64,000 bases of DNA from contig JAJDDJ010000013.1 of NCBI GenBank assembly GCA_029260395.1, positions 496,001 to 560,000 on the forward strand. Direction: 5' to 3'. Source of the stretch: Phycisphaerales bacterium (GTDB taxonomy: Bacteria > Planctomycetota > Phycisphaerae > Phycisphaerales > UBA1924). Below the pieces are notes generated by a model. That model had not been told where the DNA came from. It made no database searches and was given only the letters and a program-made list of their open reading frames with translations. Of the stretch, positions 8,464 through 59,615 are shown one piece after another. Within the stretch, counting starts at the first letter, position 1; every line of letters begins with the position of its first letter. A program made the position numbers and the translations under genes.

Positions 8464-10956
8464 ATGCGCAAAGCACTCTCGACGCTGCTCGCCCTCAGCC
8501 TGGGGACGCTCGTTTCCTGCGATCCCATCCCCGCGACGCTGACCAACCTGCAGCAGCAGTTTGAAGGTGCCGCCAATGCGTGCGTGGTGGAAGGGCCCGA
8601 GGGCTCGGGCCGCGTGCTGGTGCTCCAGTACGTCCCGATCGCGACGGACAACGTGACGCTGACCATTTATGAGTCCACGAACATCATCGGCGCGGGCGGG
8701 AGAATCTGCTTCACTGTGCCCGGAAAGCCCGTGGCGATCGGCAAGTGCGTGAGCGATACGACCGCATCGGGCATCTCGAGGATCGCGGTGGCGACCGACG
8801 ACGGCCAGGTACACCTCATCAACATTGAGTCGGGCGTGGACTCGACGCTCGGGCCGAGCGGCGTCGAGATGATCCGCGGTATCGAGTTTGTCGCGGGCTC
8901 TGTGCCCGGGCGCAAGAACATCGTGGTCTACGGCGACAAGGGCGGCGCGACCGACGCGGTCGGTGTCTTCATCGACAACGGCGACGGCTCGTACCTCAAT
9001 GGCGAGTTCCAGTCTGGCCTGGCTTCGGTCACCGGCATGAAGGGCCTCGATCTCGACGGCGACGGCGACGAGGACCTCGCGTTCACCAGCCCTACCGGTC
9101 CCAACGCGCTGCGCACCGCGTTCTACGACGCCGACCTCGCGTACGCTGCGGCGTTCGCCTACACGGTCGCCGACTCGGCAGCCGGGCTGGGCTCGGCCGA
9201 CCTCGACGGCGACGGGCGCAAGGACCTGGTGGTTTTCAGCGATGTGCCGCTCAGCATCGGGCAGGCAACCGTGTTCAAGAACATGGGCGACGGCACGGTC
9301 TCGCAGACCCACACGCAGCCTGTCGGCAGCGGCCCGACCCACATCGCGTTCGGCGACGTCAATCTCGACGGCCACCCGGACGCGGTGGTGGCCAACGGGA
9401 ACGACGACACCGTGAGCCTGCTGTTCGGCATCACCGGCGCAGCGTTCGGCGCGGCGAGCACGCACGTCGTCCCCGACGGCGTAGCTGACATGCTGCTGAC
9501 GAGCGTCGGCCCTCCCGGGCTCAGCGCGCCGTACCCGCACGTTGATCTGGTCGTGTACTCGACCTTCGAGAACGTGGCCGTGGTCCTGCTGGGCGACGGC
9601 ACAGACCTCGTGAGCGAGCAGGTCGTCAAAGTGCCAGCGGCCAACGAAGTGCTCGACTTTGTGCTGGCGGACTTCGACAACTCGGGTGACGGGGTGCTTG
9701 AAGCCGCGGCGCTGATGGTGCCTACGGACACGGGCTCGTTCCCGTACGACCTCTACACCGTTCCCTGGGATGCCGGTGCGCAAACGTGGGGCACACCCGG
9801 CCCGCCGGACGACTCGGCCAACCTGTTCGGCAAGCTCGTCACGGCCGATTTCGACGGGGTCAACGGCCCCGACCTGGCAGGGGGCATCCTCAGCGGCGGG
9901 GTCGGCGTCCTGCTGAATGACGGCAGCGGAGGGCTCGGCCTCGCACCGCTCACGATCGACACCGCGGGCCGGCAGGTCCAGGCGATCGAGGTCGCGAACA
10001 TCAACACGCAAGAGACGGTCGACCAGCACCCCGATGCCATCATCCTGGTCGACAACGAGCTCCGCACATGGTTCGGCCAGGGGGACGGGACGTTCACCGC
10101 CGGTCCAACGACGGCCGCGATAGGCCGGAGCATGGCGATGGCGATCGACCCGAACGGCTCGATCCGGCTGTGCGTCGCGCACCCCGCGATCGACTCGGCG
10201 ACGTTCTGGCTCGTGAACACCGACGGCACGTTCACGCAGACCGACACTGTCTCAACTGCGCCCTTGGGGAACATCTCGTCCATCACGGCGGGCGACTTCA
10301 ACGCGGACGGCTTGCCCGATTTTGTCGCGGTCAGCTCCGACGACCCGCAAGTGGATGTACGCGTGCTCCTGTTCGAGCGGCAGGCCTCGCCCGGTGACTA
10401 CTCGGCCCAGACTTTGTTTACGGGCGCACGTTCCGAAGGCTGGGCGCTGCTCGATGCGGTCATCGCCGATTTAGATGGCAACGGCCAGGCCGATGTGGTC
10501 GCGGTCAACAACGGCTTCGATCCCGCCGAACAGTTTGTCGCTCAGTTGCCCGGGATCACGGCGGGCATGTCGGTCTTGCCCGTCGAGTCGTACCTCTCGG
10601 GCGAGCCCTCGGGACGCATCGCGGTTGCCGACCTTGGCGGCGACGGCGGGACGTGGGTAGTCACGGGCAAGGCCGGGCTGGCAACGGGGCTTTCCGCCTT
10701 GCCTGTTCGGATCAATCGCTTCGTGGAGGCTTGCGTGGGCGATATCGCCGACGACTTCGGCAACCCCGGCGGTGATGGCATGGTGAGCTTTGGCGACTTC
10801 CTCGCGCTGCTCGGACTCATCGGCCCTTGCCCGGGTGGTACCCCCGGCTGCACCGGCGACATCGCCGACGATTTCGGCACACTCAACGGTGGTGACGGCA
10901 TGGTGAGCTTCGGTGACTTCCTTGCGCTGCTCGGGCTCATCGGGCCATGTCCGTAG
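8464..10956 (+). CDS. Secreted FG-GAP/VCBS repeat protein with two C-terminal dockerin-like modules
   Basis: An 830-residue exported protein. The N-terminus has a signal sequence with a lipobox-like LVSC at residues 16-19, so it may be a lipoprotein. The body carries FG-GAP/VCBS repeats with Ca-binding-like loops: DLDGDGDEDLAF, DLDGDGRKDLVVF, DVNLDGHPDAVV, DFNADGLPDFVAV and DLDGNGQADVVAV, which usually build a beta-propeller. From residue 757 two tandem modules follow, each reading roughly GDIADDFG...GGDGMVSFGDFLALLGLIGPC, the second ending the protein. ATG is preceded by AAGGAG. The same tail occurs in three other proteins of this window. Role is probably extracellular or surface binding; the ligand is unknown. 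Confidence 0.85.
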   Translation: MRKALSTLLALSLGTLVSCDPIPATLTNLQQQFEGAANACVVEGPEGSGRVLVLQYVPIATDNVTLTIYESTNIIGAGGRICFTVPGKPVAIGKCVSDTTASGISRIAVATDDGQVHLINIESGVDSTLGPSGVEMIRGIEFVAGSVPGRKNIVVYGDKGGATDAVGVFIDNGDGSYLNGEFQSGLASVTGMKGLDLDGDGDEDLAFTSPTGPNALRTAFYDADLAYAAAFAYTVADSAAGLGSADLDGDGRKDLVVFSDVPLSIGQATVFKNMGDGTVSQTHTQPVGSGPTHIAFGDVNLDGHPDAVVANGNDDTVSLLFGITGAAFGAASTHVVPDGVADMLLTSVGPPGLSAPYPHVDLVVYSTFENVAVVLLGDGTDLVSEQVVKVPAANEVLDFVLADFDNSGDGVLEAAALMVPTDTGSFPYDLYTVPWDAGAQTWGTPGPPDDSANLFGKLVTADFDGVNGPDLAGGILSGGVGVLLNDGSGGLGLAPLTIDTAGRQVQAIEVANINTQETVDQHPDAIILVDNELRTWFGQGDGTFTAGPTTAAIGRSMAMAIDPNGSIRLCVAHPAIDSATFWLVNTDGTFTQTDTVSTAPLGNISSITAGDFNADGLPDFVAVSSDDPQVDVRVLLFERQASPGDYSAQTLFTGARSEGWALLDAVIADLDGNGQADVVAVNNGFDPAEQFVAQLPGITAGMSVLPVESYLSGEPSGRIAVADLGGDGGTWVVTGKAGLATGLSALPVRINRFVEACVGDIADDFGNPGGDGMVSFGDFLALLGLIGPCPGGTPGCTGDIADDFGTLNGGDGMVSFGDFLALLGLIGPCP
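10732..10956 (+). repeat. Tandem dockerin-like module pair (copy 1)
   Basis: Two modules of about 35 residues joined by a GGTPGC linker, encoded at the 3' end of the preceding gene. Nearly identical DNA occurs at 12405-12626, 31932-32156 (minus strand) and 59379-59615. The DxDxDG-like GGDGMVSFGD loop resembles one half of a dockerin, and the flanking Cys residues could form a disulfide. Confidence 0.8.
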
Positions 10957-11060: not shown

Positions 11061-12626
11061 GTGAGAGAGACTATGACCGCCGCATCGCTCTTTGCCTTGT
11101 CCGCTGGTTGCATGGCGCTGTCCCCAGCCGCAGCGACCGCACAGGACGATCAGTGGGGTGCCGGCCCGGGCGGCAACTCGGCCCGCAACTGCGTCTCGAC
11201 CGTGATCGGCCCGAGCGCCCCTACCGAGATCTGGCGTGGCTCGCCCGTGGGCGACATTCTTGAAACCCAGCCGTTCATCGGCGATGGGTTCGTGGTCACA
11301 GGCCGCATCCAGAGCTTTACGATTCCTACGGGTTCGTTCATCGTGGCGCAGGACCTGTTCACGGGCTCGGTGCTCTGGCAGGTGCAACTGCCTTACAACG
11401 ACAACGCTCTCAACCCCGACCTCGATGCCGAATGGCGAGGCCGGGTGACGAGCGCTCGCAACGACCGTGTCTACGCAACCCGCGCGGGCAACACGAGCTC
11501 GGCCCCGGTGTACGCGCTCGACGCGGCCGACGGCTCGGTCGTGTGGATAAGCGAAGACCTCATCACCAACGGCTCGACCGAAGGTAACGCCTTCGCGCCC
11601 AACGGCGACCTGATCGTGGGCAGCCAGGTAGCGGGTTCGGCCAACCAGATCCCGGGCAACGTGATGCGCATCAACAAGGACACGGGCGAGACGATCTGGA
11701 AGACCGACCGCTCGTGCCCGACCTCCAACGGCTGCTCGGTCGCGGTCGCCAACAACAAGGTGTACTACTTCCAGGCCGGCGCCCCGGGCCCGATTGTCAC
11801 CGCAGCGGACCTTGCAACCGGAGCCGTGCTGTATTCGTCCGTCCCGGGCGACATCGAGACCGGCTTCGTCCAGCAGGTCGGCTTGTTCGTTGGCCAAGAC
11901 GGCACGATCTATGTGCCGCGCGGCCAGCAGGGCCTGCCGGGCGATCTGCCGGGAACCGAGTTCGACACCTTCTTCGCCCTGCGCGACACGGGGAGCGCGA
12001 TCGAGCCTATCTACGGCCTGCCCGCGGGGTTCGTGCCGTTCTCGACCACGGGCACGACCAGCGACGGCAGCGTGTACGCCTACCGCACGCCGGAGAACTC
12101 ATCGGGTCAGCTTCTCGGGGAGTTGATCGTGCTCCGGCTCGACGCGACGGGGACGATCATCAACCAGTCCGCGGCGCTGCCCACCACGACGGTCGCACCC
12201 TCGCCGAGGATGGCGATCGGCGCGGACGACACCATCTATCTCTCGACCGAAGCAGCGCTCGTAAGCCTCAATCCTGATCTCACGGAGAACTGGCGCATCG
12301 ACGACTGGGTCGATCTCGGCTTCCCGGCGCTGGGTCAAGACGGCGTGCTCGTCGTCAGCAGCGGCAACACCGATCTCCGCGCGTTCCAAACTCCGTCTGC
12401 GATGTGCGTAGGCGACATCGCAGACGACTTTGGCAACCTCGGCGGCGATGGCATGGTGAGCTTCGGCGACTTCCTCGCGCTGCTCGGGCTGATCGGACCG
12501 TGCCCAGGTGGAACGCCCGGTTGCACGGGCGACATCGCAGACGACTTTGGCAACCTCGGAGGAGACGGCATGGTGAGCTTCGGCGACTTCCTCGCGCTGC
12601 TCGGGCTCATCGGGCCGTGCCCGTAA
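11061..12626 (+). CDS. Secreted PQQ-like beta-propeller protein with two C-terminal dockerin-like modules
   Basis: 521 residues. I chose GTG at 11061 because GAGGAG lies 8 nt upstream and a clean signal peptide (MTAASLFALSAGCMALSPAA, then ATAQ) begins directly after. The body has PQQ/BamB-like repeats with the typical strand-turn patterns: DLFTGSVLWQVQLP, ALDAADGSVVWISEDL, INKDTGETIWKTD and ADLATGAVLYSSVP. These build a beta-propeller. Two dockerin-like modules start at residue 449 and end the protein. It sits 104 bp downstream of another dockerin protein in the same orientation, so the two may act in one extracellular assembly. No catalytic motif is visible. Confidence 0.85.
   Translation: MRETMTAASLFALSAGCMALSPAAATAQDDQWGAGPGGNSARNCVSTVIGPSAPTEIWRGSPVGDILETQPFIGDGFVVTGRIQSFTIPTGSFIVAQDLFTGSVLWQVQLPYNDNALNPDLDAEWRGRVTSARNDRVYATRAGNTSSAPVYALDAADGSVVWISEDLITNGSTEGNAFAPNGDLIVGSQVAGSANQIPGNVMRINKDTGETIWKTDRSCPTSNGCSVAVANNKVYYFQAGAPGPIVTAADLATGAVLYSSVPGDIETGFVQQVGLFVGQDGTIYVPRGQQGLPGDLPGTEFDTFFALRDTGSAIEPIYGLPAGFVPFSTTGTTSDGSVYAYRTPENSSGQLLGELIVLRLDATGTIINQSAALPTTTVAPSPRMAIGADDTIYLSTEAALVSLNPDLTENWRIDDWVDLGFPALGQDGVLVVSSGNTDLRAFQTPSAMCVGDIADDFGNLGGDGMVSFGDFLALLGLIGPCPGGTPGCTGDIADDFGNLGGDGMVSFGDFLALLGLIGPCP
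12405..12626 (+). repeat. Tandem dockerin-like module pair (copy 2)
   Basis: Both modules read GDIADDFGNLGGDGMVSFGD, then FLALLGLIGPCP, with a GGTPGC linker. They are almost identical to each other and to the other three pairs in the window. Confidence 0.8.
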
Positions 12627-31931: not shown

Positions 31932-32156
31932 CTACGGGCAGGGCCCGATGAGCCCGAGCAGCGCGAGGAAGTCGCCGAAGCTCACCATGCCGTCGCCGCC
32001 GTTGAGCGTGCCGAAGTCGTCCGCGATGTCACCATCGCAGCCGGGCGTGCCGCCGGGGCAAGGACCGATCAAGCCGAGCAGCGCGAGGAAGTCCCCGAAG
32101 CTCACCATGCCGTCAGCGCCGAGCGTGCCGAAGTCGTCGGCGATGTCGCCAACGCA
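31932..32156 (-). repeat. Tandem dockerin-like module pair (copy 3)
   Basis: Same pair as at 10732-10956, 12405-12626 and 59379-59615, here on the minus strand at the 3' end of the metalloprotease gene. Confidence 0.8.
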
Positions 32157-34412
32157 CAGCGACGGCGGCGGCGGAATCTGCTCGTTGATCGCAAATTCCG
32201 TGACGTCGAACTCGTCGTCAATGGTGGTGTTGGTGCGGCCATTGCCGAAGTTGGGGTGCCCGTTCAGCGCGTACTGCAGGTTCGCCCAGTCGTCGTGGCT
32301 GGTGAGGGTGGTGAGGCCGCCGGCGGGGTCGGTCGGCGCGCGCCGGTTGATATCCGCCATCACGAGCGGCTGACCGGCGGGGGTCGCCCCGTCGCCGTTC
32401 CAGTCGACTTTCTGTCCGGTCGCCAGAGGGGCCCAGCCCCAGGTGTTGGCGGCGGTGGTGAAGGGCACTTGCACAGCGGCGTACTCGGGCCGCGTCGCGC
32501 CGAGGCTGGTCGATTCATCGAGCGCCGTCTCGACCAGCGGCGGGAGCGCCTCGCGGGAGTAGTCGAGACGCCAGAGATGTGCATACATCGACTGCGGCGT
32601 CTGCCAGCGGTAGTTCATAACCGAGTAGTAGTTGGGCTTGTAGTGCGTGTTGTCCCCACCGCCGTGGCCAAGCCCGAGGGTGTGGCCGAGTTCGTGCATG
32701 AAGGTGCCGGCCTTCTGGTCGGGCGTGCCGCCGGGCGGCGCCCATGCGCCGAGCGTGACCATGAAGTCGTTGCCGGGGAACTCGGCCAGGCCCGAACTTC
32801 CCGATCCGTCGTAGGTATCGGCGAAGATGCAAAAGCGGAACGCTGCTTCGCGCGCGGCCTTGATGTTGGGCCAGTTGGCGTCGGCGCGCTCCGTGGCGGT
32901 GCCCAAGCGTGCGGCCTTGACCGTATCGAAATCGGCGAAGTTGTTTGGGAACGGCGCTCGAGGGATGCTGGTTTCGTCGATCACGAGATGCAGCGCGATG
33001 CCGCCCGTGCCGCCGCCGGGCGGCGCAGGCACGGGTGCCTGATTGAAGGCGTCGATGACCGGCTGCAGATCCGCCATGGTCGGCGCGCGCCCGGTCATCG
33101 CGTCGATCTCGATGAAGATGTCCTTGCGATCGACGCGTGCGCCCATCGCGGGAAGATCCAGATCGATCACGCCGTCGCCGTTGCTGTCGATGCCGTTGGT
33201 CTCCCACGAATCGAGCAGTCCGTCGCCGTCGGTATCCAGATTGAAGAGGTACGCCGACCCGGAAGAGCTGCCGTTGTCGTCGTCCGCGTACGCCCCAACG
33301 AAGGCCGTGGTGCCGCTGATCGCGACGGAGCAGCCGAACTGGTCTCCCGCTGCCCCATCGCCGGGCAGGAGCTTGGCGATCTGCTCGCCGGTCGTCGTGT
33401 CGAAGAGGTACGCAGACCCGGAGCTAGAGCCGTTGTCGTCGTCCAAGAAGGCTCCGACTACGGCCCTCGTTCCGCTGATCGCGACGGATATACCAACAGA
33501 ATCTGCCGGTGCCCCGTCGGTGGCAATGAGCTTGGCGATCTGCTGCCCGGTTACGGTATCGAAGAGGTACGCCGAACCGGAATCGATGCCGTTGTCGTCG
33601 TCACTCTGAGCCCCGACCACGGCCGTGGTGCCGCTGATCGCCACGGAAATTCCGAAACGATTATCTGCTGCTCCATCCCCGGGCACGAGCTTGGCGATCT
33701 GCAGGCCGGTGGTTGTGTCGAAGAGGTACGCCGAACCGGAGTTGCTGCCGTTGTCGTCGTCTTGGTAAGCGCCGACTACCGCCGTCGTGCTGCTGATCGC
33801 GACGGAGTAGCCGAACCGATCTTCCACTGCCCCGTCGCTGGGCAGGAGTTTGAAGAGCTGCTGTCCGGTGGTCGCGTCGAAGACGTACGCAGAGCCAGAG
33901 CCGGAGCCGTTGTCATCGTCCAAGAAGGCTCCGACCACGGCCGTGGCGCCGCTGATCGCAACGGAGATGCCGAAGTTATCGGCAACTGTTCCGTCGCCGG
34001 GCAGGAGCTTCGCGAGCTGCTGGCCGGTGGTCGTGTCAAAGACGTACGCAGACCCGGAGCCGGATCCGTTGTCGTCGTCCGCGAAGGCTCCGACCAAGGC
34101 CGTGGTGCCGCTGATTGCAACGGAGCGGCCAAAGTAATCTCCCACTGCCCCGTCGCCGGACAGGAGCTTGGCGATCTGCTGGCCGGTGGCCGTGTCGAAG
34201 AGATATGCGGCCCCGGAGTTGGAGCCGTTGTCGTCTTCAAACAAAGCCCCGACCACGGCCATGGTGCCGCTGACGGCAACGGAGAAACCGAACTCATCGC
34301 CCCCTGCCCCGTCGCTGGGCAAGAGCTTGGCATCCTCGTTGATCACCTGGCCCGCGGCGGGCAAGGCGGCGATGGCGAGACAGACGGCGATTATGGTACT
34401 GGTCAGTCTCAT
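31932..34412 (-). CDS. Secreted metalloprotease with seven FG-GAP propeller repeats and two dockerin-like modules
   Basis: 826 residues with a signal peptide (TIIAVCLAIAALPAAGQ). Residues about 28-390 are seven 53-residue FG-GAP repeats, each like KLLPGDGAAGDQFGxSVAIS then GTTAVVGAxxDDDNGSxSG and AYLFDTTTGQQI; seven repeats fit one complete propeller. An EF-hand-like DTDGDGLLDSWE and DSNGDGVIDLDL follow. The protease domain has HELGHTLGLGH at 573-583 and a Met-turn SVMNY about a dozen residues on, as in metzincins. Two dockerin-like modules start at 753. The propeller probably sits outside the cell and binds Ca. It is convergent with the TPR-YggX gene. Confidence 0.88.
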   Translation of the reverse strand: MRLTSTIIAVCLAIAALPAAGQVINEDAKLLPSDGAGGDEFGFSVAVSGTMAVVGALFEDDNGSNSGAAYLFDTATGQQIAKLLSGDGAVGDYFGRSVAISGTTALVGAFADDDNGSGSGSAYVFDTTTGQQLAKLLPGDGTVADNFGISVAISGATAVVGAFLDDDNGSGSGSAYVFDATTGQQLFKLLPSDGAVEDRFGYSVAISSTTAVVGAYQDDDNGSNSGSAYLFDTTTGLQIAKLVPGDGAADNRFGISVAISGTTAVVGAQSDDDNGIDSGSAYLFDTVTGQQIAKLIATDGAPADSVGISVAISGTRAVVGAFLDDDNGSSSGSAYLFDTTTGEQIAKLLPGDGAAGDQFGCSVAISGTTAFVGAYADDDNGSSSGSAYLFNLDTDGDGLLDSWETNGIDSNGDGVIDLDLPAMGARVDRKDIFIEIDAMTGRAPTMADLQPVIDAFNQAPVPAPPGGGTGGIALHLVIDETSIPRAPFPNNFADFDTVKAARLGTATERADANWPNIKAAREAAFRFCIFADTYDGSGSSGLAEFPGNDFMVTLGAWAPPGGTPDQKAGTFMHELGHTLGLGHGGGDNTHYKPNYYSVMNYRWQTPQSMYAHLWRLDYSREALPPLVETALDESTSLGATRPEYAAVQVPFTTAANTWGWAPLATGQKVDWNGDGATPAGQPLVMADINRRAPTDPAGGLTTLTSHDDWANLQYALNGHPNFGNGRTNTTIDDEFDVTEFAINEQIPPPPSLCVGDIADDFGTLGADGMVSFGDFLALLGLIGPCPGGTPGCDGDIADDFGTLNGGDGMVSFGDFLALLGLIGPCP
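33240..34331 (-). repeat. Seven tandem 159-bp coding repeats (FG-GAP)
   Basis: Seven in-frame copies of a 53-codon unit, the last shorter. Both protein and DNA are strongly conserved between copies, for example the DDDNGS segment and the CTTGGCGATCTGCT stretch on the plus strand. This suggests recent amplification or gene conversion. Confidence 0.85.
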
Positions 34413-34714: not shown

Positions 34715-36013
34715 ATGGACCACAACCAACTGCTCGAGGACTACCTGGATCCAGATCTCTCGGAGCTTCGCCTCTGCGATCGTCACAGCCTCACCCTCAG
34801 CCAGCTCCGCGAGGCTATTAGCGCGCCGCAGTTCGCCGCTGCACTCGCCGACATCCAGACCATCAATCAACAACGCGCGACGCACCTTGCATCCCAAACC
34901 GCGCGCTCAGCACTCGCCCGCCTCTCCGAGATCACCAGCACCCCACTCCAGCACGCGAGCGCCTCACTCATCGAGACCGTCCGCAAAGCCGCAGTCTCGG
35001 TCCTTCGAGCCGGGGGCGCGAGCTCTCGAGCACGCTCTTCCAGCAAGCCTCAAGCGCAAGCGAGAGCACGAGGACTCTCATGGAAGAACCCAGCGCTGGG
35101 GGACAAGGCAAATCCCGGGAAAGCGGCATCACCGCCTCTGTCTCCTATCGCCCAGTCATCATCGCCCGCTGCCTATCCCAGCACGCCCCGCTGGCGCAGC
35201 ACGCCCAGCAGCACCTCCGCCGGGTCCGCATCGCTCAGCACACGCAGGTGCGTGATGTCCCGCGAAACGCACGCCTTGGCCACCCGCGCCGCGTGCGCCT
35301 CGAACCTCTCTTGGTACCGCTCCAGCAGCGCGCGAGAGAGCGTGACCTCGACGGCCTTCGATGTCTCGATATCCGTCAGCCGCAGATCGCCAACGAGCCC
35401 CGCGTCGCGGTCGGCCGATGGATCGACCTCGCCCGGGCTGAGCACCTGCACGCACGCTGCATCAAAGCCTTTAGGCACGACCAGCGCGCCCAGTGTGGTT
35501 TCGAGGCCATCATCAACGAGCAGATCGCTCAGCAGGATGGCGACGCCCTGGCCGCGCCTGGTCAGCGCACTTCGCCGGAGCTCGGCCGCGAGGTCCACGC
35601 TTGGCATCTCGCGCGAGGCATCGGCGATCGCTTGCAACAGGAACTCGCCCACCCGTCGGATGTTCCGCCTGCCGCGCAGCGGGGCGAGCGTGCGCCCGCG
35701 CGAGGTACCGACCGAGCCCCCCTGTACTGAACCCAGCGGAGCAAGACCCAGGACCGTCACCACCACGCGGTTCTGCTGGCTGAGCCCCACCGCCGCCAGC
35801 GCCATCGCGAGCCGCGCCGCGCTCACGAGCTTGGTAGGTGCTGCATCGCTGGCCGCAAGCGTGCTCTTGCCGCCGGTGAGCATCGACGCCGAGGCATCGA
35901 GGTACAGGTGGAGCGTCTGGTCCTCCTCCTCGCGGAAGAGCTTGAGGACGAGCCGATCAAACCGCGCCAGCACGTTCCAATCAAGGTGGCGAAGGTCATC
36001 GCCCCGCGTGTAA
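34715..36013 (+). CDS. HTH-like protein, ORF continues antisense into the DUF58 gene
   Basis: The first 100 or so residues look like a real protein: MDHNQLLEDYLDPDLSELRL, then HSLTLSQLREAISAPQFAAAL and further helices, reminiscent of helix-turn-helix proteins of the small-terminase or DNA-binding type. AAGGGG lies just before the ATG. From about residue 130 the sequence becomes Ser/Arg/Pro-rich and runs in antisense through most of the DUF58 gene, with no stop until 36013. That second part looks like a shadow. Either the true gene is short and a frameshift or lost stop has fused it to the antisense frame, or the two genes really overlap by 840 bp. Confidence 0.4.
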   Translation: MDHNQLLEDYLDPDLSELRLCDRHSLTLSQLREAISAPQFAAALADIQTINQQRATHLASQTARSALARLSEITSTPLQHASASLIETVRKAAVSVLRAGGASSRARSSSKPQAQARARGLSWKNPALGDKANPGKAASPPLSPIAQSSSPAAYPSTPRWRSTPSSTSAGSASLSTRRCVMSRETHALATRAACASNLSWYRSSSARESVTSTAFDVSISVSRRSPTSPASRSADGSTSPGLSTCTHAASKPLGTTSAPSVVSRPSSTSRSLSRMATPWPRLVSALRRSSAARSTLGISREASAIACNRNSPTRRMFRLPRSGASVRPREVPTEPPCTEPSGARPRTVTTTRFCWLSPTAASAIASRAALTSLVGAASLAASVLLPPVSIDAEASRYRWSVWSSSSRKSLRTSRSNRASTFQSRWRRSSPRV

Positions 36014-36192
36014 GGCCGGTAGTCGTCGAACTCCACGCTCTGGCCCCGCCGCTTGCTACGACGCTCACCGGGCAGCTTGCCCGCGAACAGCTTCTTGCTG
36101 AGGATTGCCAATCGATCCAGACGGGCGAGCAGCTCCGGGCCGAGCAGCTCGTCGACGCTCTTAGGCACAGCGATGTCCGGCGTGAGCAGCAC
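35173..36192 (-). CDS. DUF58 domain protein
   Basis: 339 residues. The DUF58 hallmark is GRRSKRRGQSVEFDDYRPYTRGDDLRHLDWNVLARFD (split here as RGQSVEFDDYRPYTRGDD and LRHLDWNVLARFD). A von Willebrand A-like fold follows, with LHLYLDASASML giving the DxSxS metal site. Such proteins usually occur with MoxR-type AAA ATPases and are thought to help assemble or activate partner complexes; no MoxR gene lies nearby. No membrane helices. GTG start at 36192 with TATGCT 6 nt upstream. It diverges from the secreted coiled-coil gene by 36 bp. Confidence 0.9.
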   Translation of the reverse strand: MLLTPDIAVPKSVDELLGPELLARLDRLAILSKKLFAGKLPGERRSKRRGQSVEFDDYRPYTRGDDLRHLDWNVLARFDRLVLKLFREEEDQTLHLYLDASASMLTGGKSTLAASDAAPTKLVSAARLAMALAAVGLSQQNRVVVTVLGLAPLGSVQGGSVGTSRGRTLAPLRGRRNIRRVGEFLLQAIADASREMPSVDLAAELRRSALTRRGQGVAILLSDLLVDDGLETTLGALVVPKGFDAACVQVLSPGEVDPSADRDAGLVGDLRLTDIETSKAVEVTLSRALLERYQERFEAHAARVAKACVSRDITHLRVLSDADPAEVLLGVLRQRGVLG

Positions 36193-36198
36193 GCCGGT

Positions 36199-36204
36199 AG
36201 CATA
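36199..36204 (-). promoter_or_regulatory. TATGCT -10-like hexamer, leaderless start
   Basis: On the minus strand TATGCT stands 6 nt before the GTG of the DUF58 gene, inside the 36-bp gap to the divergent gene. Confidence 0.4.
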
Positions 36205-36228
36205 CGCGAAGGAAGGTGGAACCCGCCC

Positions 36229-36990
36229 ATGCGAACCACGCCGACTGCTCTTGTGGCTCTGCTCGCCGCCGTGCTGACCGTGCCGACCGCGAGCGGGCAG
36301 TCAGAAACCGCCGAACTCGACCGCTTGCGCGCCGACAACGCCGCTCTCCGCGAGCGGGTCGCCGAGCTCGAAGCGGCGCTGTTTGATGTGCGCTCGACGC
36401 TGAGCGAACTGCTCCGGTCGATCACCCTTGGCCAGACCAGCCGCGTTCCCCAGCGGGCTATCGCGTCGGGGTCTTCCGACCCGACCTCAAGCCCCGATGC
36501 ACTCCTGGCGATGCTCCGCGACCGCTACGAGCGCGAGCTGCCCGCCGATGGCCGAACGCCTCAAGCTGTCCGCCCGTGGTGCGAGCAGCACAACGCCAAG
36601 AGCCTCGGCCGGGTGACGTGGCTCATCAAGCCCATGGCCGACTCGCCCGCTGCTCGCTCGCCGGTCCATACATGGGTGCGCGTGTACGACGAACTCACCG
36701 GCAGACCCATGGGCTCGCCCACCGAGATCCCGCTGCCCGCCCGTCTTGTACGCACGATCAGCACCGATCCGAACCGCCCTTGGCTGCTGGAGGCCGAGCT
36801 CGCGCCGTCGATCGTGTTCAATATCGATCGGCCCACGCCGGGCGTGTTCGATTACCCGGTGCTCATCGGCCCGTATGCCGAGTTTGGCCTGACGCTGCAA
36901 CGAGCTGAACTGCGGCCCGCATCCGAGGGCACCGCTGAGCTGATCGACAGCGCGACATCGCCCATGCCCCCGAGCGATCCGGGCCGGTAG
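36229..36990 (+). CDS. Secreted protein with N-terminal coiled coil
   Basis: 253 residues, unrecognised. A signal peptide (MRTTPTALVALLAAVL, then TVPTASGQ) is followed by a leucine-rich heptad stretch (LDRLRADNAALRERVAELEAAL, about 28-60). A beta-rich C-terminal domain of about 150 residues follows, with HTWVRVYDELTGRPMGSP and PSIVFNIDRPTPGVFDYP. AAGGTGG lies about 10 nt before the ATG. Divergent from the DUF58 gene. Probably periplasmic or envelope-associated; no enzyme motif is visible. Confidence 0.7.
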   Translation: MRTTPTALVALLAAVLTVPTASGQSETAELDRLRADNAALRERVAELEAALFDVRSTLSELLRSITLGQTSRVPQRAIASGSSDPTSSPDALLAMLRDRYERELPADGRTPQAVRPWCEQHNAKSLGRVTWLIKPMADSPAARSPVHTWVRVYDELTGRPMGSPTEIPLPARLVRTISTDPNRPWLLEAELAPSIVFNIDRPTPGVFDYPVLIGPYAEFGLTLQRAELRPASEGTAELIDSATSPMPPSDPGR

Positions 36991-37027
36991 CCAGCGATTG
37001 GCAGACTCTATTCAGCTATTTAGTTCG

Positions 37028-37080
37028 ATTCAGCGGAACGCGCGCGGGTCGTCGATGGGTTCGCCGTCGGCGCGCTCCCA
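37028..37080 (-). repeat. Duplicated 3' end of the 3D-domain gene, copy A (fused to HNH gene)
   Basis: 53 bp matching 38019-38071 with five differences, in the same orientation. In this copy the reading frame of the HNH gene runs into the duplicated sequence and ends ADGEPIDDPRAFR, exactly as the 3D-domain protein does. Confidence 0.9.
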
Positions 37081-38010
37081 CGCAAGTAACCGAGAAATCA
37101 ACGTCGGGAGTGACTTGGTGTCGAAGGAGTACTCTCCCGGCACATCGAGGCATGTCGCCAGACTCGGCACTGGACACGAGTACATGCCCGTCCAAGGGAT
37201 AGGCTCACCGCATGCGTTTAGCGTCCATTCTCGAAGACGTGGAGTCCTAAGAATCCAGAAGCAAGTCCAACCTCGTGTGCATCCGCGCTGCTCATCAGGC
37301 AGTCTTACCCACGTACAGCAGTAGCGAAACTCATTACCCCATATCGAAACTTCATCTCGCTTTGCCGTGGCGACACCCTCCAGTACGATTCGAGCTGCGA
37401 TCGATCGCAAACTGGATTGTGTCTTGCGTACGGTTGCATCTGCTCTCTCGTGGGCACCCTCTGGCACAGGGGCAATCTCACGATGCCCCACAGTTTCAGG
37501 AAGATACTCTCCATAGAGGGCCGCGTGCAACCCTCGTATCCAAGTCCAAATGCCGTCCATCAATGGCCTAGCAGCAATAATTGTCGGCTCTAGCGGCAAA
37601 CTCGGCAAAGTCACGAATGGCCGCAACACCCTTCCCCTGAGCAAGTCAGCAACTGAAGAGGCCCCCGCCGGTCGAGCCTCCATTGCTTCGAGTGCATGCA
37701 ACACCCTGTCGTTGGCCTCTTTTCGAGACTGGTCGCAGGCTCGGTGACACTTCAAAGTCAACGAGAAACGCTGGTTTGCTGCTTTCGGCGGAGTGCCAAG
37801 AACACTTCGAGGTATCACGTGCTCGGTCTGGATCGGATCGCTCGAGCCCCCTGTAAACCCTTCCCCACACAGGTAGCAAAGTCCCCGTTGACCTTGCCGA
37901 CCACGCAGAGTGGACAGTCGAGACCTAGCGAGTTTGGCCTGATTCTGAGTTGTAATACTCGGCACAACTGAGAGTAGCCGTGTGCTCAAAGCGACGCGAT
38001 CACTGCCCAA
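37030..38010 (-). CDS. HNH endonuclease
   Basis: About 326 residues if started at the TTG at 38010; GTG codons at about 37965 are alternatives, and no Shine-Dalgarno decides. The HNH core reads CYLCGEGF...QTEHVIPRSVLG...LKCHRACDQSRKEAND, giving the CxxC, the catalytic His and the second zinc pair. The remainder is unrecognised. GC content is about 52% (31 of 60 in 37321-37380) against 70% in the adjacent 3D gene (42 of 60 in 38041-38100). Its last 13 residues are identical to the end of the upstream 3D protein because the 3' end of that gene is duplicated. It begins 10 bp after that gene's stop. Likely a recently acquired mobile or homing-type gene. Confidence 0.82.
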   Translation of the reverse strand: MGSDRVALSTRLLSVVPSITTQNQAKLARSRLSTLRGRQGQRGLCYLCGEGFTGGSSDPIQTEHVIPRSVLGTPPKAANQRFSLTLKCHRACDQSRKEANDRVLHALEAMEARPAGASSVADLLRGRVLRPFVTLPSLPLEPTIIAARPLMDGIWTWIRGLHAALYGEYLPETVGHREIAPVPEGAHERADATVRKTQSSLRSIAARIVLEGVATAKRDEVSIWGNEFRYCCTWVRLPDEQRGCTRGWTCFWILRTPRLREWTLNACGEPIPWTGMYSCPVPSLATCLDVPGEYSFDTKSLPTLISRLLAWERADGEPIDDPRAFR

Positions 38011-38018
38011 GCGGCACT

Positions 38019-38071
38019 ATTCAGCGGAACGCGCGCGGGTCGTCGATCGGCTCGCCGTCGGCGTATTCCCA
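38019..38071 (-). repeat. 3' end of the 3D-domain gene, copy B (resident copy)
   Basis: Partner of 37028-37080. Of the four codons that differ, three changes are synonymous and one changes Tyr to Arg. The interval between the copies holds only the HNH gene. Confidence 0.9.
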
Positions 38072-38701
38072 GATCACCACGGGCAGCTTCCGCACGCCCC
38101 ACTTGCGGGCCTGCCGAGCCGTCGGGAACAGCACATCGAGCTTGTAGCCCTTGATCGCCGCACCACGATCGAGCACCGGGACCACCCGCGCCTCGTCGTA
38201 GCCCGGCACGCTCACCAGGCTGCCGAACGGCAGCAGGCTCGTGTCGGCCGCCACCAGTTTCATCGCGTTCGTATAGACCGAGTGCAGCGTCGCGGTCTTG
38301 CCGTCGTTGAACGGCGCGCACGACTCGGCACCGGGCGAGTACGCGGTCACCTGCATCCACACGACCCGTGCGGGCCTGATCGGCCTGCCGTTGAACGTGT
38401 GCTCTTGCTCACGAATTTGCTGCTGAATCGCTTCGCTCAACTCGGCCGTCTCGCCGACCGCGTGCTTGCTGGCCTCACGAGCAGCAGCGCGTGGCATGGC
38501 CGCAACCTCTATCACGTGCTTGTCGACGCTCGGCCTGGCGCGAGTCTGCTCGATGACCGCCAACGGCGGAGCCGCGGCTTCCTTGGCGATGATCGCCGAG
38601 CCCACCGTCACCGCGACGGCCATCGCTGCACCCACAGCTTTGGCCCAGGTCTGGAACCTTGCGGATCTCAAGATGCGGTGCGTGGCACTATCGGTGCGCA
38701 T
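38021..38701 (-). CDS. 3D-domain protein (cell-wall lytic or RlpA-like)
   Basis: 226 residues. A membrane helix near the N-terminus (VGAAMAVAVTVGSAII) anchors or exports it. The C-terminal half has the 3D domain with its aspartates: MQVTAYSPGAESC, YTNAMKLVAADTSLLPFGSLVSVPG, VPVLDRGAAIKGYKLDVLF, then ARKWGVRKLPVVIWE. 3D domains occur in MltA and other peptidoglycan-acting proteins, where the three Asp residues form the active site. ATG at 38701 has GGAG about 10 nt upstream; a longer frame to 38866 lacks support. Its 3' end is duplicated in the HNH gene directly downstream. Divergent from the TSUP permease gene (149 bp). Confidence 0.85.
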   Translation of the reverse strand: MRTDSATHRILRSARFQTWAKAVGAAMAVAVTVGSAIIAKEAAAPPLAVIEQTRARPSVDKHVIEVAAMPRAAAREASKHAVGETAELSEAIQQQIREQEHTFNGRPIRPARVVWMQVTAYSPGAESCAPFNDGKTATLHSVYTNAMKLVAADTSLLPFGSLVSVPGYDEARVVPVLDRGAAIKGYKLDVLFPTARQARKWGVRKLPVVIWEYADGEPIDDPRAFR

Positions 38702-38850
38702 CGTCGGCACTCCAGCGGTGCCTTCCTTGGCCCGAGTCGGTTCCCCGCCGCCAGAGCACTCGCCGGGCGCGGGGCCGATATGGTAGACCCGCGTAGCACA
38801 CCCGTCGGCCCCCCGCCCGCTACCCGTACACAAACCCAGCAGGAGCCCCA

Positions 38851-39678
38851 GTGGGCCTCGAAGCACTGATCATCGCCATTCTCATCGGGCTGTTTGCCGG
38901 CGTCATCGGCGGACTGTGCGGCATCGGCGGGTCCATCGTCATGCTCCCAGCCCTGGGGCTGGTCTTTGGTTACAAACTCCTAGACGGCTCGCCCGACCCT
39001 CAGCGGTCCGCGCACCACGTCTACATGGCGGCGGCCATGATCGTCAACGTCGTCATCGCTTTCGCCTCCAGTTCTCAGCACAAGAAAGCCAACGCCAACG
39101 CGCCGGGCGTCGTCGCCAAAGCCCTGCCCAGCATGATCCTGGGCATCATCCTCGGCGTGCTCGTCTCCAACAGCTTCGACGGCAAAGTGCCCAAGCTCGC
39201 CCTTGCCGGCTTTCTTGTGCTCGCTGCGGCGTGGACCGCGTTCAGCGCGGTGCGCAAGCTGCCCGACCCACCGCCCGACGGCGTGTGCGCCACATGGGCA
39301 CGTCTCGGGCCGATCGCCCTGGGCACCGGCTTTCTCGCGGGCTTTCTTGGCATCGGCGGCGGGATCGTCCTCGTGCCTCTGCTCCAGCTCATCCCGCGCG
39401 TGCCGCTCAAATCCTCAATCGCCGCCAGCGCGAGCGTGATGCGGATCAGCTCGATCATCGGAGCAGGCCTTAAGCTCGCCACCCTGCCCACGCTGGCCCT
39501 AGCCGTCGAGCAGCCGGTGCTCCGGGCGGTCTCACTCGGCGGAGCGATGGCCATCGGGGGCGTCCTCGGGGCCATGCTCGGCGCCAAGCTCACCCACCGC
39601 CTGCCGTTGCGCGAGCTGCGGCTGGTGGTCGCGGTCGTGCTCGCGGTGGCCGCAGCCAAGCTGGCCGGCTGGATCTGA
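38851..39678 (+). CDS. TSUP-family permease (TauE/SafE)
   Basis: Membrane transporter of 275 residues with about eight helices arranged as two homologous halves. Each half begins with the family signature: GVIGGLCGIGGSIVMLPAL at about 17-36 and GFLAGFLGIGGGIVLVPLL at about 165-184. Family members export or import sulfite, sulfonates or other organosulfur anions; the substrate here cannot be told. GTG start with AGGAG 5 nt upstream. Monocistronic by appearance, 64 bp before the HtpX-type gene. Confidence 0.92.
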   Translation: MGLEALIIAILIGLFAGVIGGLCGIGGSIVMLPALGLVFGYKLLDGSPDPQRSAHHVYMAAAMIVNVVIAFASSSQHKKANANAPGVVAKALPSMILGIILGVLVSNSFDGKVPKLALAGFLVLAAAWTAFSAVRKLPDPPPDGVCATWARLGPIALGTGFLAGFLGIGGGIVLVPLLQLIPRVPLKSSIAASASVMRISSIIGAGLKLATLPTLALAVEQPVLRAVSLGGAMAIGGVLGAMLGAKLTHRLPLRELRLVVAVVLAVAAAKLAGWI

Positions 39679-53423: not shown

Positions 53424-53723
53424 CCAGCCTATGGGTCCGAGCCCTGGGCCGAAAAAGCCCCAGCAGCGTTCGATGATCCCTCGGGGCCAAGCCGTCGTCT
53501 GGCCCAGTTCCCTCGGGCGGGCATCATGCCCCTAGCTCCCAGTTCATCGGACCAAGGATACCACCGTCGGGAGTTTCCGGCGGCCTCACGAGCCTGTCAT
53601 TCGCCTTGCACCCTTCCAGATCCCTATCGACGCTCGATTCCACTCTCCCGCGCGTATACTCAGTCTCAACGGACCTGGGCTCCGCAAAGAAACTGAACCG
53701 CCCAAGCTTTGGAGATCAAAATC
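53424..53723. other. Intergenic region upstream of hppD
   Basis: About 300 bp without a gene. TATACT at 53655-53660 is a good -10 match 63 nt before the hppD start, but no convincing -35 lies 16-18 nt upstream. Confidence 0.4.
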
Positions 53724-54923
53724 ATGACCACCGCGCAAACCAAGACCGGGGGCGCTGGCGCTGTCGGCACCGATCCGCTAAGCCTCATCGATGTCGACCA
53801 CGTTCGCTTTTACGTCGCCAACGCCAAGCAGGCCGCGTACTTCTACGCCCACACTTTCGGGTTCAACATCTCGCAGGTCGCCGACCTCACAACCGGCAGC
53901 CGCGACGAGGCCGACTACCTGCTCACGCAGGGCAACATCCGCCTCATGCTCACCACGCCCCTCACCACGGACCACCCCGCCGCCGAGGAGATCAAGCTCT
54001 ACGGCGACGGCGTCAAGGACGTCGCGTTCACCGTCTTCGATGCCGAGGCCGCGTACAAGCGCGCCATGAGCAACGGCGCGGTCTCGGCCGCCGAGCCCCG
54101 CACCATGAAGGACGACATCGGTTCGGTCACCGTCGCCTCCATCAAGACCTACGGCCGGGTCATCCACACCTTTGTCAGCCGCACCGGCGGCTACGACCTC
54201 ATCAACGTCAAGAAGGGCGGGGCGCTCATGCCCGGATTCAAGCCCTTCGACTGCCCCCTCAACGCGTACAACGCCAAGCACCCCTGCGGGCTCAAGTACG
54301 TCGACCACCTCGTTGGCAACGTCGAGGAGGGCAAGATGAATTACTGGGTCAAGTGGTACGAGGATGTGCTCGAATTCAAGATGTTCAAGCACTTCGATGA
54401 TGCCGACATCTCGACCGAGCACTCCGCGCTTATGAGCAAGGTCATGGCATCCGGCAACAACCTCATCAAGATGCCCATCAACGAGCCGGCTGATGGCAAG
54501 AAGAAATCGCAGATCCTCGAGTACCTCGAGTGGCACAACATGACCCCCGGCGTGCAGCACCTCGCCCTGCGCACCGACGATGAGCTGCACTCGGTCGCGG
54601 CCCTTCGCAACCGAGGTGTCGACTTCCTCAGCCTGCCCGACACCTACTACCAGCTCGTCTGGGACCGCGTCAACAAGATGCTCACCGAACACGGCCACAC
54701 CGCCGTCAAGGAAGACCACGACCGCGTCAAGGAGCTGGGCATCCTCGTGGACGCGGACGATGAGGGGTATCTGCTGCAGCTCTTCACCAAGCCGCTGCAG
54801 GACCGCCCGACGCTGTTCTTCGAGATCATCTGTCGCCGCGGCTCGCAGTCGTTCGGCAAGGGCAACTTCAAGGCCCTGTTCGAGGCCCTGGAGCTTGAGC
54901 AGGAGCGGCGAGGGAATCTGTGA
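53724..54923 (+). CDS. hppD: 4-hydroxyphenylpyruvate dioxygenase
   Basis: Non-haem iron enzyme that converts 4-hydroxyphenylpyruvate to homogentisate in tyrosine catabolism. 399 residues; two vicinal-oxygen-chelate domains. The iron ligands are His in KYVDHLVGNV, His in PGVQHLALRT and Glu in LFFEIICRRG. The start is the ATG at 53724 with GGAG 9 nt upstream. The last 29 codons and stop (54834-54923) recur 1.3 kb downstream at 56239-56328. No homogentisate dioxygenase gene is nearby, so the pathway is incomplete in this window. Confidence 0.96.
   Translation: MTTAQTKTGGAGAVGTDPLSLIDVDHVRFYVANAKQAAYFYAHTFGFNISQVADLTTGSRDEADYLLTQGNIRLMLTTPLTTDHPAAEEIKLYGDGVKDVAFTVFDAEAAYKRAMSNGAVSAAEPRTMKDDIGSVTVASIKTYGRVIHTFVSRTGGYDLINVKKGGALMPGFKPFDCPLNAYNAKHPCGLKYVDHLVGNVEEGKMNYWVKWYEDVLEFKMFKHFDDADISTEHSALMSKVMASGNNLIKMPINEPADGKKKSQILEYLEWHNMTPGVQHLALRTDDELHSVAALRNRGVDFLSLPDTYYQLVWDRVNKMLTEHGHTAVKEDHDRVKELGILVDADDEGYLLQLFTKPLQDRPTLFFEIICRRGSQSFGKGNFKALFEALELEQERRGNL
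54834..54923 (+). repeat. 3' end of hppD, resident copy of a duplicated segment
   Basis: 90 bp, 29 codons plus stop, matched at 56239-56328 with 80 of 90 bases identical. All ten differences fall in eight codons and are synonymous. Confidence 0.9.
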
Positions 54924-55097
54924 AGCTCACCATGCGCGGCTCGCCAACCTCCTCAGCCGGGGGGCGGCAGGCGCCGGTCGTTTCACAGGCAACAGAAGCT
55001 CTGAGTGTTCACTCAAGGGTATCGAACCCGTTGATGGGTCACTTGGCGGCAGGATCATCTTGTTTCACACCGCTCATGCGGATCTGTGGATGCACTC

Positions 55098-56687
<1,590 letters not shown>

Positions 56688-58664: not shown

Positions 58665-59615
58665 ATGAACGCCCGCAACCCTGTACACATCGCGCTGCTG
58701 GCAGCCACGCTGCTGGCCGGTGCCGCACCAGTCGCGTCGGCCCAGGTCGTGCCCGTCCGTTCGAGCCTCGACACGCGGTCGAGGATCGCTCTCAGCGTGG
58801 TCGATCTCAGCGACGAACAAACCCGCTCTGACGATCAGGGTGCCATGACCAACACGCTCGGGCCACACACGACGCCCGTCTCGATCAGCAGCGCCGACGG
58901 CGTGTACACCGCCAACACCACCGGCAGCGCCCTGTTCGCCGATGCTGCCAACGGCACGTTCGCTTCGACGCAGACATACGACGGCAACCGGGCGCCGGGC
59001 GACGTCAGCGCGCAGTCGTTCTTAACCACACTCTCCAGCATTTTCGAGTACGACTTCACGCTCGCCGGTGAGGGCAGCATCCGCTTTGAGGGCACGCTCT
59101 CGAACTCCGGCCCCTCGTTCATCGGCTTCACGGCACGGGTCAATGTCTTCAGCGAGTTCATGCCCGGGAGCGGCTTCACCGGCTCGTTCTTTGAGCAGCT
59201 CTTCACCGATCAGACATCCGCCGGGCCGACACCGTTTGATATCACCGTGCCGCTGACCGCAGCCTCAAGCAGCTACCGCGTTCAGATCCGCCTGACCCAC
59301 AGCGGCAACTCGGGGCTCGAGACCCCCGTGCAACTCGGGTCGACCACCATCGACTGGACGATCACCGCGCCGACCGCGTGCCCCGGGGATATCGCCGACG
59401 ACTTCGGCACGCTCCCCCCCATTGGCGGCCCCGACGGCATGGTGAGCTTCGGCGACTTCCTTGCACTGCTCGGCCTCATCGGACCGTGCCCCGGCATGAC
59501 CCCCGGCTGCGACGGAGACATCGCGGACGACTTCGGCACGCTCAACGGCGGCGATGGGATGGTCAGCTTTGGCGACTTCCTCGCGCTGCTCGGCCTCATT
59601 GGGCCCTGCCCGTAG
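58665..59615 (+). CDS. Secreted protein with two C-terminal dockerin-like modules
   Basis: 316 residues. A signal peptide (VHIALLAATLLAGAAPVASAQ) is followed by a beta-sandwich-like domain of about 200 residues (SSIFEYDFTLAGEGSIRFEG, FIGFTARVNVFSE, SSYRVQIRLTHSG) with no catalytic motif. Dockerin-like modules start at residue 239 and end the protein; the first has a slightly longer loop (LPPIGGPDGMVSFGD). GAGGAG is 8 nt before the ATG. Fourth and last member of this tail family in the window. Confidence 0.85.
   Translation: MNARNPVHIALLAATLLAGAAPVASAQVVPVRSSLDTRSRIALSVVDLSDEQTRSDDQGAMTNTLGPHTTPVSISSADGVYTANTTGSALFADAANGTFASTQTYDGNRAPGDVSAQSFLTTLSSIFEYDFTLAGEGSIRFEGTLSNSGPSFIGFTARVNVFSEFMPGSGFTGSFFEQLFTDQTSAGPTPFDITVPLTAASSSYRVQIRLTHSGNSGLETPVQLGSTTIDWTITAPTACPGDIADDFGTLPPIGGPDGMVSFGDFLALLGLIGPCPGMTPGCDGDIADDFGTLNGGDGMVSFGDFLALLGLIGPCP
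59379..59615 (+). repeat. Tandem dockerin-like module pair (copy 4)
   Basis: Same architecture as the pairs at 10732, 12405 and 31932. The linker is GMTPGC instead of GGTPGC. Confidence 0.8.

Follow-up and report, generated by a model that had tools for sequence, protein, structure and literature searches.

We conclude that the HNH-like endonuclease gene lying between two copies of the 3' end of a 3D-domain protein gene is probably a passenger, carried in on DNA from a related bacterium that recombined with the resident gene through the 3' end that the two had in common. The anatomy of this locus, in which a gene end is found again on the far side of a passenger, is recurrent. Across five genomes (this one and four relatives), we found seven such loci with nine displaced ends in total, most of them behind genes other than nucleases.

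The window, that is, the whole stretch of 64,000 nucleotides that was analysed, carries the 3D-domain gene on the minus strand (38021-38866; Pfam PF06725, E-value 4e-11). The 3' end that this gene now uses (copy A, 38019-38071, minus strand) recurs at 37028-37080 on the same strand (copy B), with 48 of 53 bases identical (91%) and five differences. The pair is the longest direct repeat in 35500-39500 and has a BLAST E-value of 2e-14 in a self-comparison of 16 kb. Its score of 40.5, against a maximum of 15 in shuffled downstream sequence, far exceeds chance, and the repeat extends over the stop codon and two more bases (TGAAT). Between the copies is a single long coding ORF, which is HNH-like (37030-38010, minus strand). 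Its frame enters copy B, and it therefore shares with the 3D ORF the C-terminal end ADGEPIDDPRAFR. The initial annotation had described the recurrence with its five differences, an interval holding only a low-GC HNH gene, and two proteins with the same ending, and the repeat search and the ORFs bear this out; the GC content of the insert is 0.562 (window, 0.652; 3D gene, 0.678), and the HNH identity comes from weak profile matches. Translation of this gene probably starts with the GTG at 37965 rather than the TTG at 38010, because the former is aligned with the first residues of homologs. The gene would then occupy 37030-37965 (minus strand), with its last 16 codons and stop codon provided by copy B. 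Beyond copy B is a convergent gene of the IGPYxEFG family (36262-36990, plus strand; upstream start uncertain), which by tblastn abuts the 3D gene in relatives.

Comparison with relatives indicates which arrangement is ancestral. In nine relatives found by tblastn, the 3D gene and the same neighbor are convergent, the HNH gene is absent, and there is a single 3D tail. Because these genomes without the HNH gene have one tail, the HNH insertion and the tail duplication are the derived state. The distance between the stop codons of the 3D gene and its neighbor is 6-109 bp in the nine relatives. In the window, it is 39 bp measured from copy B and 1030 bp measured from copy A. Thus, by synteny, copy B is the native 3D end, now displaced. 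The earlier proposal of an insertion that left the 3D gene with an intact 3' end is supported by these comparisons, as none of the nine relatives has a second tail. In addition, the shared peptide is not the normal ending of the HNH family. HNH homologs end otherwise, and the peptide is native to the 3D family: 3D homologs are present in 48 of 61 relatives, many relatives have the ending WEYADGxP..PR..R, and copy A codes for WEYADGEPIDDPRAFR, the usual ending of the family. Copies A and B are closer to each other (46/51) than to any other genus (41/51 at most), and they are about equally near to other genera in this comparison, which contained no same-genus genome. A search of genome contigs for close relatives of the 3D gene gave only one, at 61% identity, from a Phycisphaerales MAG, and its junctions were uninformative. 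This match, together with the style of the proteins, points to a planctomycete (Phycisphaerales) as the owner of the genome. We found neither a donor with the 3D-HNH arrangement, or a close relative, nor an empty site at base resolution for the 3D locus.

The passenger itself is foreign, because its GC content at third codon positions (GC3) is 0.55 compared to 0.83 for the 3D gene and because, among 400 genomes from the order, only 13 match a nine-member profile of its family, at unrelated places and usually in one copy per genome. At the three codon positions, the HNH gene has GC values of 0.58/0.55/0.55 and the 3D gene 0.67/0.55/0.83, and GC3 is 0.78-0.91 in the KAS III and HPD genes described below. 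We call the family HNH-like. The HNH_5 profile matches three of nine members (best E-value 0.012), a PHROG HNH profile matches one member (E-value 0.0065), and there is a PtuB match (E-value 0.03). These matches are weak (0.0065-0.04) yet concordant, and the residues conserved across nine members, CxxC (CYxCG), (E/D)H and HxxC, agree with them. No HNH match was found in the PDB, and no HNH relatives were found in phage and viral contig collections. Genes of this family are often behind gene 3' ends, for example those of groEL and MMCM (methylmalonyl-CoA mutase), and one is convergent with sucC; gene calls were made with a simple codon-usage script.

The same anatomy is found elsewhere in this genome. 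We scanned about 1.55-1.56 Mb with 1174 genes for local repeats containing the 3' end of a gene, and two loci emerged besides 3D/HNH. The first is also in the window, where the terminal 104 bp of an HPD-type dioxygenase gene (53709-54923, plus strand; copy A, 54820-54923) reappear 1.4 kb downstream, on the other side of a KAS III (FabH-like) gene (55086-56138, plus strand; Pfam PF08541, E-value 2.5e-35). The displaced copy of 104 bp (56225-56328, plus strand; 85.6% identical) is in frame of a 41-aa remnant. The second is the MeaB locus (L115/L116) on the same contig as the window (C13, 114697-118713), which has three 3' ends. The order is a B12-binding/MeaB gene, an NTP-transferase (nucleotidyltransferase) gene, a second MeaB end, a P450-like gene (so labelled from reading of the sequence, with no profile search), and a third MeaB end. 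This locus is a case of serial accretion, and second MeaB tails within 1.5 kb were absent from 29 other genomes. The repeats have a direction. Repeats of the 3' end were found for three genes (four displaced copies), compared to no genuine 5' case among the 1174 genes; the sole match in the corresponding 5' search was a pilin paralog, which was rejected. The genome is apparently a draft assembly of 23 contigs, in which strain-mixture artefacts are possible at any single locus, but recurrence of the pattern in five genomes argues against such an artefact.

Several other local repeats were rejected: dockerin-like SFGDFLALL tails, a Gly-rich low-complexity tail, PEP-CTERM-like paralogs at C13 239922, zinc-ribbon paralogs at C1 199793, and tandem related genes at C13 140246. 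Separately, many large surface-type proteins have at their end a near-identical doubled SFGDFLALLGLIGPCP tail (dockerin-like) that is very similar at the DNA level. Such tails occur in the window at 31935-34412, 8464-10953, 11073-12623 and 58665-59612, and there are many more on C13.

Relatives have displaced gene ends with other passengers. Second HPD tails are present in three of 41 genomes, the one studied here, G288 and G330. The passenger in G288 is a DUF4145 gene. G330 (L221) has two extra HPD tails, with a PIN gene and its antitoxin and then HicB as passengers. In G148, the end of a methyltransferase gene is duplicated around a DUF4145 gene, and in G338, the last 70 bp of MMCM are repeated behind a small Cys-rich ORF. 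This second MMCM 3' end is found in G338 alone in genus g68. The MMCM stop codon in that genus behaves as an insertion hotspot: the sequence behind it differs in every genome examined (L100-L109), and an HNH homolog, found there in G235, is one of many different passengers. Lastly, G330 and G006 (L238), which belong to different genera, have in common an HPD 3' end followed directly by the PIN and antitoxin genes, collinear at 75%. Because this block is shared across genera, it is as expected if the passenger moves together with the gene end.

These findings bear on the mechanism raised in the initial annotation, that the nuclease mobilizes itself by cutting a gene end. The HNH protein would cut the 3' ends of 3D genes that lack the HNH gene, one-sided repair would copy it in together with a resistant 3' end, and the displaced end would mark the cut, as in the mobile ORF elements (mORFs) of fungal mitochondria. 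The architecture does resemble the published mORF hybrids (PMC3630166), since the 3D locus has a duplicated C-terminus with an endonuclease ORF between the copies. An HNH-like protein, the sporadic distribution of the family, and its members behind the 3' ends of groEL and MMCM or convergent with sucC also fit homing. However, identical anatomy is found with passengers that are not nucleases, in the window, on its contig and in four relatives, and HNH is one of many different passengers at the MMCM hotspot. Furthermore, at the other HNH-family loci with both flanks readable, there is no clear repeat of a neighboring gene end, the association with duplicated ends that had been suggested as a check. 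(The G307 locus, whose contig stops at the HNH gene, was left out, as were two pieces of G115 located at contig ends, and a weak 36/49 match beside a small gene at L055 was unconvincing. At the sucC locus in G169, synteny is lost downstream, such that the empty site is unreadable.) In G006, comparison with two same-genus genomes reveals that the HNH gene was inserted with no duplication, between the end of a gene and an apparent rnpB terminator (rnpB recognized by eye). Judged by the loci without clear repeats and this insertion, repeat formation is therefore not a property of this HNH nuclease family, and we consider homing unlikely.

At 924-1509 of L070 (G309), which lies between the end of a gene and an apparent rnpB, an inverted repeat of the ACAGAGCACGAAGCGCAAGCGAGTGCC type encloses a small ORF. 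In G102, the hairpin is bare.

The differences between paired copies are concentrated at third codon positions: 3/5, 8/15, 9/9 (the MMCM pair), 7/10 and 9/11, or 36 of 50 over the five pairs (p = 3e-8 compared to one third). The 3D pair alone, with three of five differences synonymous (p = 0.21), has too few to decide. The paired copies resemble functional alleles that have diverged, one of them imported and the other native, because a plain duplication drifting on one side should give fewer third-position changes. This pattern of synonymous divergence, found over the five pairs and not for the 3D pair by itself, is supportive of import and not conclusive, as purifying selection on the used copy after a plain duplication would also raise the third-position share. 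In such a target-site duplication or templated repair, joining of the HNH gene would have been accompanied by a staggered break or a polymerase slip that doubled the native 3' end, and the copies would then have drifted. The TGAAT shared past the last codon, the small number of synonymous differences in the 3D pair, and the greater similarity of the 3D copies to each other than to those of other genera are all consistent with this possibility. The excess at third positions over the five pairs and the passenger-plus-3'-end units common to different genera speak against it, and we think it quite improbable.

The boundaries of the inserts are variable. The displaced HPD copies begin about 145, 104, 69 and 63 bp before the stop codon, and inspection by eye revealed no obvious motif shared by the insert ends, which together are evidence against one fixed recombination site. 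An arbitrary far junction with homology at only one end is a feature of one-sided import. Site-specific integration, in which gene 3' ends would be attachment sites of a recombinase acting in trans on integrase-less inserts with attL and attR at their ends, as in cis-mobilizable elements (CIMEs), could account for the regenerated 3' ends and the stacked copies (MeaB and the HPD gene of G330), both typical of att sites, and for the MMCM hotspot, but it is very unlikely given at least five unrelated target sequences, start points that differ even at one gene (HPD), insert ends with no common core seen, and no recombinase among the annotated passengers.

We therefore return to homology-anchored import, which we believe probably accounts for the 3D locus. 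A fragment from a related bacterium, with its own 3D 3' end followed by the HNH gene, would enter the cell and recombine with the resident 3D gene via the common 3' end. This could happen by one homologous crossover with a circularized fragment. Alternatively, the exchange could be homologous at one end and the join illegitimate at the other, which is known as homology-facilitated illegitimate recombination (HFIR). Thereafter, the 3D gene would end in the imported 3' end (copy A), and the native end would be pushed beyond the passenger, where by chance it would give the HNH gene its last 16 codons and stop. Both routes fit, and the data do not separate them. For this particular locus, we infer that copy A is foreign, by which route it recombined and what the donor was; against import, the 3D locus by itself, with three of five differences synonymous, does not establish copy A as foreign. 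Homology of 53-104 bp is also short for RecA recombination, which is a further point against import. There is experimental precedent for such events. In E. coli conjugation, single crossovers gave duplications of the lacZ end of 109-950 bp, HFIR was rarer, and end duplications greatly outnumbered events of the deletion type (PMC3240628). Recombination of this kind has also been used to explain small variable segments in bacterial genomes (PMC2884548). It is doubtful, in our opinion to a high degree, that these loci reflect a family with a dedicated gene-capture route, an integron-like system with host gene ends as docking sites, in which single genes would be added directly behind the stop codons of housekeeping genes, the 3' end renewed each time and old ends stacked downstream.

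If import is correct, each displaced gene end is the fossil of one horizontal transfer, from which the anchor and the passenger can be read and, once more genomes are available, the donor too. Simple scanning for repeated gene ends works without close relatives, and thus natural one-sided recombination could be counted and dated. The toxin-antitoxin and nuclease passengers also raise the possibility that gene ends are a general docking place that operates without mobile-element machinery.

The initial annotation knew of no description of regeneration of a protein-coding 3' end with the stop co-opted in frame, but two closely similar systems have been published. In mORFs, known from atp6, atp9, cox2 and nad3 of Glomus and atp6 of Allomyces, a foreign 3' end is fused to the host gene, an endonuclease ORF follows, sometimes in frame with gene pieces, and the native 3' end is displaced downstream (PMC3630166). 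The endonuclease there is LAGLIDADG or GIY-YIG and is held to drive mobility (PMC3630166), whereas the setting here is a bacterial chromosome, with passengers that are mostly other than nucleases. In Vibrio cholerae, type VI secretion (T6SS) effector-immunity modules are displaced, as are Rhs C-termini in an analogous way; a new 3' module arrives via conserved upstream homology, old 3' pieces are stacked downstream in series, and HFIR has been proposed (PMC5361080). Those genes encode polymorphic toxins, and their 3' module changes function (PMC5361080). In contrast, the genes described here are ordinary metabolic genes that keep their C-terminus while unrelated single genes are added. Reports of end duplication by HFIR or single crossover also involve one-sided homology, but they concern laboratory or within-species events, and a recurrent natural pattern behind housekeeping genes is not described in them (PMC3240628, PMC2884548). 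Phage free-standing HNH homing endonucleases (intronless homing) are likewise sporadic HNH-like genes between genes. They are not defined by a duplicated gene end, and the family here, with at most a putative target specificity, was not found in phage and viral collections. Within a limited literature search, what appears to be new is that the pattern recurs behind ordinary metabolic genes, that the passengers are unrelated single genes, and that as many as three ends are stacked.
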